Below are positions 12,806 through 19,331 of a stretch of 23,305 bases of DNA, piece after piece (positions within the stretch are counted from its first letter, which is position 1; the number at the start of each line of letters is the position of its first letter). Location: IMG/VR virus record IMGVR_UViG_3300030104_002731, positions 1 through 23,305 of that record. One strand, given 5' to 3'. Source of the stretch: a virus. The notes under the pieces were generated by a model, which was given only the letters and a program-made list of their open reading frames with translations, was not told the DNA's origin and did no database searches. The translations under genes and the position numbers were made by a program.

Positions 12806-15196
12806 TTACTTAGGTTTCTTACGAGCCTTATCTCTGAAATCATCAATCTGTGGATAAGCAGTATCAGGCATTGACTTAGCAGAGATGGGATCCAATCTTT
12901 TATACTTGGCAGCAGTGTTCTCACCAGACTGAAGTTTAGGATGTACCTCACCTTGTGGTGCAGGGTCAGAAGGATACTCAGGTTTGATTTCCTTATTATT
13001 AAACACTTTTTTATCAGTTACAATTTGCTTAATCCTATTCACTTTCTCAAAGTTTTTAATATTTTTTTCAGTTGTAGAAACTTCTACATTGCCAAAAGGA
13101 CTCTTGAAGTCAGGGTTCTCCCTTAACATTGCTTTTTCATGAGCAATCAAATTTAGTTCTTCCTGCATTTCTCTTGTACGCCATTCACTCTTCTTAGTTC
13201 CTTGTTCAATCATATAATCAAATGCTTGTTTTCCATGACCAACCCTATCTTGAATAATATTATCTTTCTCAGTTGTCTCATAACCAGACCATCTTTTATT
13301 ATCTGATGCCCACTGCTGACCTCTAGCAATTGCTCTACCTACTAATTCATCAGTCTGTGAACTTGAAGTATCTTGATTAGAAAAATTAATCTTATACTTA
13401 GTAGGTGCCTCTTTAATCTCAACAGGTTTTCTAATTTCCCTAAGGATTCTTTTCTGATTAGAAATTCCCTCAGTTATTGTTTTTCTCTCCCTATTGTCTA
13501 AGAACTTAGGTCTATATGATTCATTTTTAGTTTGATTAATTGGATTATCATTGAATACTGTAGGATTGTTTGTAACTAACTTAACTTTTTCTTGTGCTTT
13601 TGGTGACAATTTAGAAAGTGGTACTTTAACCTCAGTCTTTACATCACCTCTAATATTTGATGGGTATCCTGCCATTCCTCCAGTATTTGGTGTTGTAGTG
13701 TCAATACCACCACCTGAACCTTCTCCATATCTATCAGACTTGGGTGGTTCTGAATATCTAACTGAATGGACCAAATCAGATATAGCTTGTTTTAATGGAT
13801 CAGGAACCTCTCCAGGATCTTTTGATTCAAGATTATGATATGCATGGTCTGTATATAACATGTATGGTTCACTACCATCTGGAGGAACAACTATTTGTGC
13901 CTGTGCCTGTCCAGCAGCTGCTAATGGATTATTTCTTCCAGCGAAACCCATTTCTGAACGAGTCATATAGGAAACTGGTCCAGTATTGTTTGGATATTGT
14001 ATTAAAGTCTGTGGTGTATGTGTATTAACTTGTCCATTTTTATCAACATAAAAATTATCATCAGAATATGGAATTGGTTCAGAAGTCACCTTAATATCAA
14101 TTCCAATAGCAGAATCTGGAATATTGTTAGCAAGTTTATCAATTGTACTTTGTGGAATATCTGATTGATTTACTTCTATTGGTTGGTTCATAAGAATTGA
14201 CTTTGCAATATTCGTAGAATAGTCTAATGCTGGAATGCCTGTACCAATTCTATTAGTTAATACATCAAGAAGAGTAGTAGTATATTGTCCCAGTGCGCTT
14301 CTACGTGCCAGATTACCAAGTCCACCAATGAGAGCACTAAGTGGTCCACCAAGTAGATCAAGGAATGGGCCACCTGCATCTTTATCATCTCCTGATTGGG
14401 ATGGTCCATTTAGATTTGGACCATCTCCTAGATTTGGTGATCCTCCTGAACCTACACCATTACCTGGTCCCATTCCAGGTCCTACTCCACCAAACATATT
14501 AGGAGGACAGTTGGGGCAACTTGGACCACCACTGATGGGTTCTTGAGGCACACCACCACTATAAAAGTATGGAATATTTGCGGCAAAGTTTCCACCTAAA
14601 ATTCTTTCTCTCATCCATAGTGCCATATCAAGAGTGAAGTTGGAATTAGTAAAATGTATCTGGTTTGATTCCCCATTCCAGACCCTTGCTCCTGCTTGAT
14701 GCAAATCAGCAGTTAATTGTCCTTGAACTGTTGCAAGTAAAACAAATTGTCTTGTATCTTTTTGCAAATACCCAATGTTTGTAAAATTATCGCTTCCATG
14801 ATTCTGCACATAACCATCAACTAATGGACCTAAAATAAAATGTCTACTATTGGGTGGTAGTGGTGATTTGACAGTGCCATCATCTGCTATCAATCCATCT
14901 GTATTTTTTCCAGTAGGATCATCACTCAGATAGTCCTGACTTGCATCTGCTTTATTTACTTCTCCCCAATCATTTCCTCCATCCCAAAAACCCTCAGGTC
15001 TCTCATAGAAAACCTCTCCTGCATTGCCTGGAATACCATCAGGGAAGTTACCATCAACATCAGGATAAAACTTTTTAGGTCTATCAGGTTTTCTGAGACG
15101 ATATCCTGCTGGATTCAATGAATACACTCCACCCATGTTATTTGTGGGTGTCTCCTTCAAAGTTTTGATAAGTTTAGTGAATCTATTCACAGTCAT
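12806..15196 (-). CDS. Large probable virion protein (796 residues)
   Basis: The N-terminal 210 residues look folded (NPAGYRLRKPDRPKKFYP, then NQIHFTNSNFTLDMALWMRERI). A Gly/Pro/Asn-rich flexible stretch at 212-275 includes CPNCPPN, and a hydrophobic helix follows at 277-297 (PFLDLLGGPLSALIGGLGN). The C-terminal 450 residues are polar and low-complexity, rich in Pro, Lys and Asn. There is no signal peptide. Size and composition fit a tail or capsid-associated protein of cyanophages, but no family is recognised. It shares TAATG with the oxygenase gene upstream, so the two are co-translated. A CATAAATA late-like motif lies 17 bases before the ATG. Confidence 0.85.
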   Translation of the reverse strand: MTVNRFTKLIKTLKETPTNNMGGVYSLNPAGYRLRKPDRPKKFYPDVDGNFPDGIPGNAGEVFYERPEGFWDGGNDWGEVNKADASQDYLSDDPTGKNTDGLIADDGTVKSPLPPNSRHFILGPLVDGYVQNHGSDNFTNIGYLQKDTRQFVLLATVQGQLTADLHQAGARVWNGESNQIHFTNSNFTLDMALWMRERILGGNFAANIPYFYSGGVPQEPISGGPSCPNCPPNMFGGVGPGMGPGNGVGSGGSPNLGDGPNLNGPSQSGDDKDAGGPFLDLLGGPLSALIGGLGNLARRSALGQYTTTLLDVLTNRIGTGIPALDYSTNIAKSILMNQPIEVNQSDIPQSTIDKLANNIPDSAIGIDIKVTSEPIPYSDDNFYVDKNGQVNTHTPQTLIQYPNNTGPVSYMTRSEMGFAGRNNPLAAAGQAQAQIVVPPDGSEPYMLYTDHAYHNLESKDPGEVPDPLKQAISDLVHSVRYSEPPKSDRYGEGSGGGIDTTTPNTGGMAGYPSNIRGDVKTEVKVPLSKLSPKAQEKVKLVTNNPTVFNDNPINQTKNESYRPKFLDNRERKTITEGISNQKRILREIRKPVEIKEAPTKYKINFSNQDTSSSQTDELVGRAIARGQQWASDNKRWSGYETTEKDNIIQDRVGHGKQAFDYMIEQGTKKSEWRTREMQEELNLIAHEKAMLRENPDFKSPFGNVEVSTTEKNIKNFEKVNRIKQIVTDKKVFNNKEIKPEYPSDPAPQGEVHPKLQSGENTAAKYKRLDPISAKSMPDTAYPQIDDFRDKARKKPK

Positions 15197-15744
15197 TAGT
15201 TGCTCGTAAAAATATTTATGAACTCTGTATTGATAGGATCAATATGAATGTTACCACCCATGAAAGCAATGTTAGTCACTCTGCTATGAGTGGTGTCAGA
15301 TGAAGTGGATGAAACATCGTGTAAGGTACTAGGTTCAATCCATATAAACCTATTTGGTTTAGCATATATGCTTTTGTATTCCTCTTCTATTGCATTTGTG
15401 ATACTTAACCTACCACCCCATTCCTCATCCCAATGTGGGTGAATATAGAATACATATCCCCCATTATCAACATGAGGACCATTGAAGTTACCATGTCCAT
15501 AGTCTGAAGGTCTGAATTGGTTATAACCAAATAATTTTACTGCTTCTTGAAAGTGATGTTGATACAAACCAATCTCTCTTAGTCTTTCAAGAACTAAATC
15601 TCTTATTTTACTGCAGAGTTCATCTCTGGGTTCCTCAAACTTAGCACCTTCATAGAAAGATGAGTTTGCAACCAAGGATGAGATTTCATCAAACTTGTCT
15701 TGAGAAAGAAAGTTATCAATAAGTATTGCTGACCTACAAGCCAT
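15196..15744 (-). CDS. 2-oxoglutarate/Fe(II)-dependent oxygenase
   Basis: This 182-residue double-stranded beta-helix enzyme has the iron ligands His91 and Asp93 (GPHVDNGG) and His142 (LHDV), with Arg155 (THSRVTN) binding 2-oxoglutarate. The strand WGGRLSI is typical of the prolyl-4-hydroxylase-like group. Such enzymes are frequent in cyanophages and usually hydroxylate proteins or nucleotides; the substrate is unknown. It is translationally joined on both sides (TAATG each), directly upstream of the Pro-rich 796-residue protein, which makes that protein a possible substrate. Confidence 0.88.
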   Translation of the reverse strand: MACRSAILIDNFLSQDKFDEISSLVANSSFYEGAKFEEPRDELCSKIRDLVLERLREIGLYQHHFQEAVKLFGYNQFRPSDYGHGNFNGPHVDNGGYVFYIHPHWDEEWGGRLSITNAIEEEYKSIYAKPNRFIWIEPSTLHDVSSTSSDTTHSRVTNIAFMGGNIHIDPINTEFINIFTSN

Positions 15745-16268: not shown

Positions 16269-16766
16269 ATGAAAAGGTTTATTCCTTTAATAATGCTTTT
16301 GATGACAGCCCCACTAGCAGCGAATGCTGGTGGTCTGGTACATAAAATGTCATCTAGTGTTCAACTTACGGTTGACTCTGCTAGGACAACTGCTACAAGG
16401 TTGGGTTCGCAATACTCTATCAGTGGTTCAAATGTGAACACAACTGATGGAACAACCGCAGGAACTATCTCTACTGGTGCTATTACCAGTGGTATTGCAG
16501 CTCCTGGCACAATCTCTGCCACTCAGAAGACTGCTGGTGAGGCATTCTCATTTAGCTCCTCCTACATTCAGGGTGATGCTGTTCCAACCTCTGCTCCTAC
16601 TGTAGGAACTGTTGGTAACTTCTCCAGTCAGACTTCTTACACTGCTGGTGCTGCTGGAGATCTAGCAGGAACCATTGCCACTGATGGTGGTGTTGCTATT
16701 ACAGCAGGCGGAGCTGGTACAACTGCAATAGGACAATTTGTTTCTGAGATTACTGTGATTGATTGA
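16269..16766 (+). CDS. Exported Ser/Thr/Gly-rich protein A
   Basis: This 165-residue protein has a typical signal peptide (MKRFIPLIMLLMTAPLAANA, cleavage after ANA). The mature part is almost entirely Ser, Thr, Gly and Ala, with many short repeats (GTISTGAITSG, TVGTVGNFSS) suggesting beta-rich fibrous structure. Motifs QYSISGSNVN and AGEAFSFSSSYIQG recur in the following gene as QYTVSGTNVS and PGKAFQFTTTYQG, so the two are probable tandem duplicates. Late promoter control suggests a virion or host-surface role. A function is not known. Exported proteins are unusual in a phage, since most structural proteins fold in the cytoplasm. Confidence 0.85.
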   Translation: MKRFIPLIMLLMTAPLAANAGGLVHKMSSSVQLTVDSARTTATRLGSQYSISGSNVNTTDGTTAGTISTGAITSGIAAPGTISATQKTAGEAFSFSSSYIQGDAVPTSAPTVGTVGNFSSQTSYTAGAAGDLAGTIATDGGVAITAGGAGTTAIGQFVSEITVID

Positions 16767-16773
16767 GGTAAAT

Positions 16774-17217
16774 ATGAGAAAATTATTTCTCCTTACCTTT
16801 CTATTAGGATCGCCAGTAATGGCGGTCCCAGTTGTTCCCAACTTTACTCAGGGTTCTATGACGTCCCACACGGAGACTACATCTAAACAGACTGAGACAA
16901 TTAATTCCATTGACTATGCAACAGGATGGCAATACACAGTATCTGGAACAAATGTTTCCAACAATGGCAAATCCCTTTTGCCACCAACAGTGAGGAACAA
17001 TGTGAATATGACACCCTTAGGTGGAATAGAAGGTCAGGTAACAAGCACAGCCACTGGTTTGGATTTCAGAAACTCCAACTTTTCAGTAACAAAACCAGGA
17101 AAGGCATTCCAGTTCACCACAACCTACCAGGGACCAGGGATAACAAATCAGACGGTAATTCAAAGAACAACAGAGGTTACAAGCGTCACAGATACAACAA
17201 GTATATTCACGCAATAG
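16774..17217 (+). CDS. Exported protein B, diverged copy of protein A
   Basis: The start is set at ATG 16774 because GAGGT lies 5 bases upstream; a start 15 bases earlier has no such support. This 147-residue protein has a signal peptide (MRKLFLLTFLLGSPVMAV, probable cleavage after VMA) and a Thr/Ser-rich mature part. QYTVSGTNVSNNG and KPGKAFQFTTTYQGPG match motifs of protein A. It ends in a Thr/Val-rich beta-like tail (RTTEVTSVTDTTSIF). It lies 7 bases after protein A, and its 3' part overlaps the frame of protein C. Function is unknown. Confidence 0.83.
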   Translation: MRKLFLLTFLLGSPVMAVPVVPNFTQGSMTSHTETTSKQTETINSIDYATGWQYTVSGTNVSNNGKSLLPPTVRNNVNMTPLGGIEGQVTSTATGLDFRNSNFSVTKPGKAFQFTTTYQGPGITNQTVIQRTTEVTSVTDTTSIFTQ

Positions 17218-18227
17218 TTTTAAGTGCAACAACATCCTTATCCCCTGCTCAGGTTTTGTCTGCGGATGTTGGAGGTGTATCCGCTACTGCTAATCCTATT
17301 GCTAATAGTTCTGGTTCTGTAACTAACCAAGCCATCCAGGTTTTACAGGGACCATATATCACAAACACATATGGTGGTGGGATCAGTTGTCAGGGTCCCA
17401 CTGCTAACTTCACGCCATATATTACTCACGCAAGGAATGATAAAGATCCCTTTGAAACCTATTATCTGGAACCACAATATGATGCCAGGGATTTTGAGGG
17501 AAGGATGGTTGAGGTTCAAAAGAATGTAAAGAATTGGCCATGGGAGACCTGGTATGATGACAGGACATATGTAAATTCTGATGGTGAGACCGTAAGGGCA
17601 TATGAGGATGGGCAGGATATGACCATCACAGTCATGGAGATGCAGGGAGATGGTGTTCCTGATAATCCAGGCAGTAGATTATGGGAGAAACCAGTTAGGA
17701 CTGGTCAGGCAAGAAACTACAGCACCAGTATTGGACTCTCAGCAACACTGTCACTACCACTTGATGGTGGACTTCAGGCACGATGTAAGAAGGCAGCAGA
17801 TACACAAACTGCATTAATGGCACAACAACTTGCCAATAAGAGATTGGACTTTGAGTTAGCAAGACTCAAGAACTGTGGAGAATTAATGCAGAAAGGAATC
17901 ACATTCCATCCCAGGAGTAATTATGCAAGGATATGTGCTGATGTAATGGTTCAGAATGTGAATGTGATTCAACAACACACACATTCAATTCCTAAACCTA
18001 CTTCTTCAATGGGCGAACAGAGCGCAGTTCCTTCACAGCGTGATTCCTCTGCCTCTGCTCAGCAACCCTCTCAGCAGAGGATTGTGGCGGGATCTTCTTA
18101 CCCCGTAAGGAGGCAACCTTCTTCAATACCTTCTTCACTATCGGTTTCACAACCTTTAACAAAAGGTCAGCAAGAGGCTTTGCAAGCAACGCAGAACTTG
18201 TCGCTACCACAGCAATTGAGGCGGTAG
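16926..18227 (+). CDS. Exported protein C with unclear start
   Basis: The only standard start codon is ATG 16926, but the first 80 or so residues read as a shadow of protein B. The part that looks real begins near 17172: RGYKRHRYNKYIHAIVLSAT, a basic then hydrophobic signal-like segment ending VLSADVGG. The mature part has GGGISCQGPTANFTPYI, NYSTSIGLSATLSLPLDGG (a beta segment) and a helix with conserved-looking Cys (ELARLKNCGELMQKGITFHPRSNYARICADV). A rare start such as ATT 17205 or a -1 shift from protein B could supply the true N-terminus. The last 230 bases overlap the opposite gene; this S/Q-rich tail may be dispensable. Confidence 0.68.
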   Translation: MAIHSIWNKCFQQWQIPFATNSEEQCEYDTLRWNRRSGNKHSHWFGFQKLQLFSNKTRKGIPVHHNLPGTRDNKSDGNSKNNRGYKRHRYNKYIHAIVLSATTSLSPAQVLSADVGGVSATANPIANSSGSVTNQAIQVLQGPYITNTYGGGISCQGPTANFTPYITHARNDKDPFETYYLEPQYDARDFEGRMVEVQKNVKNWPWETWYDDRTYVNSDGETVRAYEDGQDMTITVMEMQGDGVPDNPGSRLWEKPVRTGQARNYSTSIGLSATLSLPLDGGLQARCKKAADTQTALMAQQLANKRLDFELARLKNCGELMQKGITFHPRSNYARICADVMVQNVNVIQQHTHSIPKPTSSMGEQSAVPSQRDSSASAQQPSQQRIVAGSSYPVRRQPSSIPSSLSVSQPLTKGQQEALQATQNLSLPQQLRR

Positions 18228-18795
18228 TAGTTACAGCACCAGCATTAGGGATATTAAGCACAATCTGATCTGGTATTGATAGTGTCTCTGTAACTGGTAG
18301 ACACTCCTTACCAACCATCTCATAGGCAACAATCTTCTTATCACCCTCTATAAGTTTACCTACAGGGTTCTTTAACTGCTGCTCCCTGGTAGGACAATCT
18401 GTCTTAGTTGATGGTGGTTTAGGTGGTGCTGGAGCAGCAGGAGGTTTTACATCCTTTGGTTTTTCTGGTGGTTTTATGGGTGGAGGGGGTGGTGGATCCT
18501 GGTTAAGATCTAAATTGTTTGGATCATATGTGAGGGGATTAAAGGAAGGAGTACCTGCATCACAGATGGTAACTGATCCTTTATCATCCTCCTCTTTAAG
18601 ATTTACATTCTCACTACTATCCCTGTGTGATGTCACACAACCAGGCATATTCACAATTGGGGTTCCCACCAAATCAGTAACTGGTGGATATATTGGTAAT
18701 GCTTGAGGTGGATCACTTGTCAACCACCTGGGCATATCAGGGATAAAAACATCCCTGATATTAATATTATTTGTTCTAATATCAGGAATAGGCAT
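17998..18795 (-). CDS. Pro-rich membrane-associated protein (265 residues)
   Basis: The start is set at ATG 18793-18795, sharing TAATG with the upstream gene. The N-terminus MPIPDIRTNNINIRDVFIPD and the segment PRWLTSDPPQALPIYPPVTD are Pro-rich. A PPPPPP and KPP-repeat linker follows at about residues 98-135, then DCPTREQQLKNPVGK. There is a hydrophobic helix (TTASIAVVATSSALLAKP) and a strongly basic C-terminus (KPIVKKVLKKVASLRGKK). This plan recurs in marine T4-like cyanophages, where such proteins appear to be virion components; I cannot name one. Its 3' 230 bases run opposite the end of protein C. Confidence 0.82.
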   Translation of the reverse strand: MPIPDIRTNNINIRDVFIPDMPRWLTSDPPQALPIYPPVTDLVGTPIVNMPGCVTSHRDSSENVNLKEEDDKGSVTICDAGTPSFNPLTYDPNNLDLNQDPPPPPPIKPPEKPKDVKPPAAPAPPKPPSTKTDCPTREQQLKNPVGKLIEGDKKIVAYEMVGKECLPVTETLSIPDQIVLNIPNAGAVTTTASIAVVATSSALLAKPLADLLLKVVKPIVKKVLKKVASLRGKKIPPQSSAERVAEQRQRNHAVKELRSVRPLKK

Positions 18796-19331
18796 TAGCA
18801 ATCATTAAACGATGTTGCTATTTCTCCTCCTAGTTCACTCCCTACATTCTGTCCCAATAATGTTGCCCAACCAGCAGCTAACCATCCAACATAGGGAATA
18901 CCAGAGAGCACAGGGGCAAGTCCTGCTGTCATGCTAGCACCTACTATCCCTCCTGTTGATTCTCCAGCGCCCTCCTGCTTGATACATTCTAGGTTTTTTG
19001 CAGTCAACTTTCCCAAGTCACCACCCTGAAGGTGACGACCTCCATCCATTGTGTACTCCTCTTCAGTCACAATCACAGAGTTTCCACCAATACCAAAGAA
19101 CCCATTGTTCTTGTTAATATTTTTTCTAACACCCATAACCTTGGGGTCATTAGAGTTATAGTTTATACTATATCCATCCCTAGTCGCATCAACACTGTAG
19201 GATGTATAGTCTCCCACAGGTAGATTTATAACAGGAAGATCATCCTTGCTAATTAGATGACCCAGGATACCAATGTGAGCAACACCAAACAGTGTTCCAA
19301 CCGTCAATGCAGCCCATCTAAATGCTTTCAT
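18795..19331 (-). CDS. Membrane-anchored Gly-rich protein (178 residues)
   Basis: The start is set at ATG 19329-19331 (MKAFRWAALTVGTLFGVAHI), right after the stop of the upstream gene. The frame is open further upstream, but that part lies inside that gene. It has an N-terminal membrane helix, a beta-rich middle (SYSVDATRDGYSINYNSNDP, FFGIGGNSVIVTEEEY), and a Gly/Ala-rich hydrophobic C-terminal half (GGIVGASMTAGLAPVLSGIP, then GWLAAGWATLLGQNVGSELG) that could insert in a membrane. It forms a translational unit with the genes on both sides. Function is unknown. Confidence 0.8.
   Translation of the reverse strand: MKAFRWAALTVGTLFGVAHIGILGHLISKDDLPVINLPVGDYTSYSVDATRDGYSINYNSNDPKVMGVRKNINKNNGFFGIGGNSVIVTEEEYTMDGGRHLQGGDLGKLTAKNLECIKQEGAGESTGGIVGASMTAGLAPVLSGIPYVGWLAAGWATLLGQNVGSELGGEIATSFNDC

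Follow-up and report, generated by a model that had tools for sequence, protein, structure and literature searches.

The nearest known arrangement to the one described here is that of the overlapped two-component spanins of the phage P2 type (PMC6139136), a pair of which one member is often missed by gene callers. In spanins, as at our locus, the gene of the second exported protein starts within that of the first, lies in another frame and runs past its end. A further point of comparison is the shift to an upstream start codon, which the abstract of PMC2268670 names as a mechanism that creates gene overlaps. Here, too, a downstream gene reaches 5' into its neighbour by way of an in-frame upstream ATG; a difference is that the extension is conserved over several phage lineages and its start is tied to the tryptophan codons of the upstream protein. 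The literature passages returned by our search contain no description of this overlap.

The window analysed here is the whole of a virus record of 23,305 bases, in which the forward genes A, B and C are followed by genes on the opposite strand. We conclude, with a probability of roughly 0.9, that C is a real gene translated from an ATG inside B, in the -1 frame, and that its product consists of a leader, a signal sequence and then a mature domain. The relevant features are as follows.

16269 to 16766, + strand: gene A, an exported protein with a signal peptide (phrog_564), used as the control for reading-frame statistics.
16774 to 17217, + strand: gene B, an exported protein with its own signal peptide (MRKLFLLTFLLGSPVMA), assigned by profile matches to DUF6322 / phrog_650.
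16926 to 16928, + strand: the proposed ATG start codon of C, made out of ...GGA TGG... (Gly-Trp) in B; GGA TGG is present in 124 of 124 relatives.
16926 to 18227, + strand: gene C, 433 amino acids from the ATG at 16926 (phrog_848).
16926 to 17217, + strand: the B/C overlap of 292 nt, with C in the -1 frame of B; it encodes the basic leader of C (about residues 1-97).
17205 to 17264, + strand: the hydrophobic, signal-sequence-like segment of C (residues 94-113, IHAIVLSATTSLSPAQVLSA) with a small-x-Ala cleavage-like site.
17998 to 18227, no single strand: an antisense overlap of 230 nt between the 3' end of C and gene D (17998 to 18801, - strand, phrog_570).

About 40% of the length of C is thus shared with a neighbouring gene, either B or D. 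The antisense overlap with D recurs in relatives and differs in length: its median is 230 nt for the clade of the window, and it measures about 105 nt in S-MbCM6-like phages and near zero in P-HM2-like phages. Elsewhere in the window, a 796-aa open reading frame on the - strand (12806-15196) is without a match at E<=1 in either PHROGs or Pfam. The protein encoded at 15196-15744, also on the - strand, matches the 2OG-Fe(II) oxygenase family PF13640 (E=1.9e-7), and PHROGs groups it with 'DNA endonuclease V', a family that looks misnamed.

B and C are members of cyanophage families without assigned function. B belongs to DUF6322 (PF19847 / phrog_650 / T4-GC 236), matching the full Pfam profile (positions 1-100 of 100, E=4.7e-36) with 123.8 bits, above the curated cutoff of 30.6, and phrog_650 with E=6e-53. 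C belongs to the family phrog_848 / phrog_1755 / T4-GC 235, as indicated by a match to phrog_848 (E=1.4e-123) that spans family positions 6-290 of 292. A comparison of T4-like cyanophages that reports virion proteomics (PMC3037559) does not name T4-GC 234-237 in the passages of it that were searched. Searches with C gave no match among PDB sequences and an uninformative result in NCBIfam, and an Rfam search of the region matched no known RNA element. A structure model of C is of low confidence (pLDDT 59, pTM 0.28); it leaves residues 1-90 unordered and places a short helix at the hydrophobic stretch (95-105), which is followed by a domain rich in beta structure and by a long helix (283-322). 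With this model, the best PDB match in a fold search reached E=0.099, and the strong matches in a viral library were to the protein's own family. The mature domain carries four invariant cysteines, which fits an envelope or extracellular protein, and C is probably an exported envelope or virion protein.

Several features differ from those of spanins. Both B and C are without a lipobox, the signal peptide of B is an ordinary cleavable one rather than the membrane anchor of an i-spanin, C has the modelled beta-rich domain plus long helix, and the part of C that lies in the overlap encodes a leader in front of the signal sequence. As regards i-spanin features, the low-confidence model (pTM 0.28) sets its beta-rich domain between helix 95-105 and helix 283-322. 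A spanin identity was considered and rejected, as no Cys of the kind found in an o-spanin lipobox stands at the predicted cleavage site of B (between SPVMA and VPVV) or of C (between QVLSA and DVGG).

Public records of C contradict one another, giving it as long, short or absent. The long form, reaching inside B, appears in GenBank for S-SM2, P-SSM7, S-RIM12, Syn33, S-RIM2, P-HM2, S-CAM22, S-SSM4 and SynMITS9220M01, with B left unannotated in some of these records. A short C is given for Bellamy, P-SSM2, P-SSM4, S-MbCM6, S-TIM5, ACG-2014g and KBS-P-1A, and C is unannotated in S-SCSM1 and S-SCSM2R. The long reading frame had therefore been recorded before, mechanically. In the T7-like podovirus KBS-P-1A (L173:2507-3315), where the annotated C is too short, the B-C pair lies between tail fibre and terminase genes, and 80 viral contigs resemble it.

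When the conserved domain of C was searched by tblastn against phage records, 428 records were returned, nearly all from cyanophages: T4-like Kyanoviridae together with S-TIM5, P-HM2 and a small number of T7-like podoviruses. Searches of viral contigs yielded about 440 loci, of which 410 were left after removal of duplicates; these loci are related by descent, and their counts are not counts of independent events. The isolates closest to the window are Bellamy and S-SM2. C lies in the -1 frame of B in 406 of the 410 loci, across Kyanoviridae, S-TIM5, P-HM2-like and T7-like cyanophages, with the frame relation broken only in L010, L150, L178 and L210.

In the window, the ATG at 16926 stands 12 nt past an in-frame TGA at 16911, and about 93 codons separate it from the signal-like segment downstream. 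The first-pass annotation had held that C lacks a normal start, with no ATG, GTG or TTG in the stretch from 16926 to that segment. This holds for 16929-17255 and fails at 16926, where an ATG stands in frame; the start codon is normal and its location unusual. The next NTG after it in the C frame is the TTG at 17256, where the hydrophobic stretch ends, and the near-cognates in 16929-17255 are ATA 16932, ATC 16941 and 16971, ATT 17106 and 17205, and ATA 17214. The same annotation had placed C in the -1 frame of B with an open overlap of about 290 bases, and the sequence bears out both the frame and the length (292 nt, 16926-17217).

Analysis of the relatives demonstrated that an upstream ATG is retained at a position characteristic of each clade. 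Measured from the B stop, it lies at -286 to -322 nt in 124/124 loci of the window's clade, at -163 to -175 in S-MbCM6-like (73/73), S-TIM5-like (12/12) and P-HM2-like (41/41) phages (126/126 in total), and at -190 in 74 of 75 podoviruses. The AG-345-A17-like clade has a TTG at -169 in 75/75 loci and an ATG at -136 in 51/75. In this more distant clade of Marine virus AG-345-A17-like loci (L386-L465), the -136 codon varies between ATG, TTG and GTG while the -169 TTG is invariant.

An NTG codon in the -1 frame is possible only on B codons that start with TG, and the C start always falls on a tryptophan codon of B, on different tryptophans in different clades. An A precedes the start TGG at 324 of 325 loci (AG clade left out), compared with 86 of 488 (~18%) of the B TGN codons outside the open run. 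The codon that supplies this base varies (GGA, TCA, ACA, CAA, AAA, AGA, GCA), and its third base is always A. C thus has a conserved start codon in the second frame. The S-MbCM6- and S-TIM5-like clades keep a Shine-Dalgarno-like GGAGTG motif about 8-10 nt before the ATG, and no convincing Shine-Dalgarno motif was found before the ATG in the window's clade. In that clade, the codons GCA ACA GGA before the C start (16893-16928) have unusually conserved third bases.

The frame downstream of these ATGs is open. In the window's clade a -1 run of at least 295 nt is open before the B stop in 124/124 loci, a count that is not conditioned on the ATG, and all 51 loci retrieved by a B query, irrespective of C, have a -1 frame open for at least 286 nt. 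Among 147 representatives no -1 stop was observed, a statistic that is partly conditioned on an ATG having been found within the same open run; with the B protein held fixed, 4.8 stops per sequence would be expected from the codons of the 5' part of B and 3.1 from the overlap's own codons. Synonymous reshuffling of B in the window's clade likewise predicts 4-6 stops per sequence. The first in-frame stop mostly lies 3-48 nt upstream of the clade's ATG, so that the open run shrinks or grows together with the start.

We consider that there is scarcely any chance at all that this openness is a by-product of the composition of B, or that the true start is masked by an error in the sequence or its assembly. 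B does contain much Thr and Ser and few codons starting with TG, which leaves almost no other NTG in the overlap. Reshuffles that keep both the B protein and the codon usage of the overlap nevertheless still give about three stops per sequence, and gene A, which is similar in character, is never stop-free (0/290 copies, with 6.4 -1 stops per 100 codons). Both frames are therefore open beyond the demands of one protein. A sequencing error was rejected because isolate genomes and hundreds of independent metagenome contigs show the identical arrangement. Only 1 of 124 close relatives has a plain ATG close to the signal segment, the finding that the first-pass annotation had expected of relatives if the window carried an error; this excludes a sequencing error or a local mutation.

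Two other routes to C were considered. In the first, which we regard as barely credible, C would be initiated at a non-AUG codon next to the signal segment (either ATT 17205 or ATA 17214), with this initiation coupled to the termination of B. The signal-like segment does sit directly at the B stop (TAG, ending at 17217), and the ATA/GTA that overlaps this stop resembles an ATGA start/stop overlap. However, codon 17205 reads CTT in 86, GTT in 21, TTT in 8 and ATT in 9 of the 124 close relatives, so that the rare ATT start suggested for the window is replaced in 115 of them. The codon at the B stop alternates between ATA (68) and GTA (55), being mostly CTG or TTA in P-HM2-like phages, and such a start would leave the long open frame and the conserved upstream ATG unexplained.

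The other route is a -1 ribosomal frameshift inside B that would yield a B-C fusion, and we judge it highly improbable. C does lie in the -1 frame, which is open over the whole overlap, and TTTAAAT occurs at -151 in 23 of 124 close relatives; a slippery heptamer (X XXY YYZ), however, is not conserved in any clade, and the locus does not qualify as a programmed frameshift. Openness begins at the ATG clade by clade, frameshifting does not need the conservation seen at the base that creates the ATG, and a fusion would have, besides the signal peptide of B, another hydrophobic segment in mid-protein. Of the possibilities raised in the first-pass annotation, that of a truly overlapping gene is upheld by the conserved ATG and the open -1 frame in relatives. 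Comparison of the junction across related phages, which it had proposed, identifies the upstream ATG inside B as the conserved start, rather than ATT 17205. B and C are a conserved overlapping gene pair, and the start is not an exotic one.

We therefore return to initiation at the upstream ATG and its consequences for the protein. In the pathway suggested by the sequence, a ribosome would initiate at ATG 16926 within B and would first make a leader, about 93 residues long, basic and disordered, from the DNA that also encodes the C-terminal two thirds of B. The hydrophobic signal sequence, encoded at the stop codon of B, would be made next, followed by the conserved mature domain. The leader would then constitute an extra-long n-region of a signal peptide that directs Sec export, and would most likely be cut off together with that signal peptide at the small-x-Ala site. 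It is unusual for a cleavable signal sequence to be preceded by an n-region of at least 90 residues. If the leader is discarded, its sequence would be free to drift while remaining stop-free, with selection mainly on openness.

The properties of the leader are consistent with this pathway. It is basic, and its length ahead of the hydrophobic stretch varies with the clade, at 41-118 residues. In charge and hydropathy it equals synonymous recodings of B that are free of stops, and selection on either property was rejected on this basis. At 4-fold sites of B, differences between relatives in the window's clade amount to 0.53 in the overlap versus 0.57 outside, and values in the overlap are somewhat lower in other clades (e.g. 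0.50 versus 0.60 in podoviruses). This near lack of constraint suggests that the amino acids of the leader are barely constrained beyond staying open. A small-x-Ala cleavage-like site follows the hydrophobic stretch in 372 of 375 sequences.

A variant with the same start holds that the leader is retained, as the cytoplasmic tail of an N-in membrane protein, or that it has a separate job after cleavage. This may be so because the leader is basic and predicted to be disordered, and because the long upstream start has been kept though a short one could easily arise near the signal segment. We consider the variant unlikely, as the composition of the leader equals that of the recodings, the 4-fold sites of B vary almost as freely in the overlap as outside, and the cleavage-like site is nearly always present. 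Similarly doubtful is the proposal that the long leader and the start inside B form a working device rather than a leftover. In such a device, a start on the B mRNA could determine how much C is made relative to B or when export takes place, or the basic leader could act in the cytoplasm before or after cleavage.

Here we have described what appears to be a start codon hidden about 290 bases inside the previous gene and conserved across hundreds of marine cyanobacterial phages. The start of a widespread cyanophage protein is thereby most likely settled where public annotations conflict or omit one gene. The locus provides a clear case of a long overlap in phages of up to ~250 kb, for which genome compression is no obvious reason. 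Since the start follows the partner protein's tryptophan codons from one lineage to the next, the constraint is visible and testable. If the leader is discarded after export, the arrangement suggests a simple form of overlap tolerance, in which the disposable part of the second gene is the part that lies in the overlap. Finally, if the long leader and internal start were a working device, T4-like and T7-like cyanophages would have in common a class of exported phage proteins whose signal n-regions are overprinted and very long.
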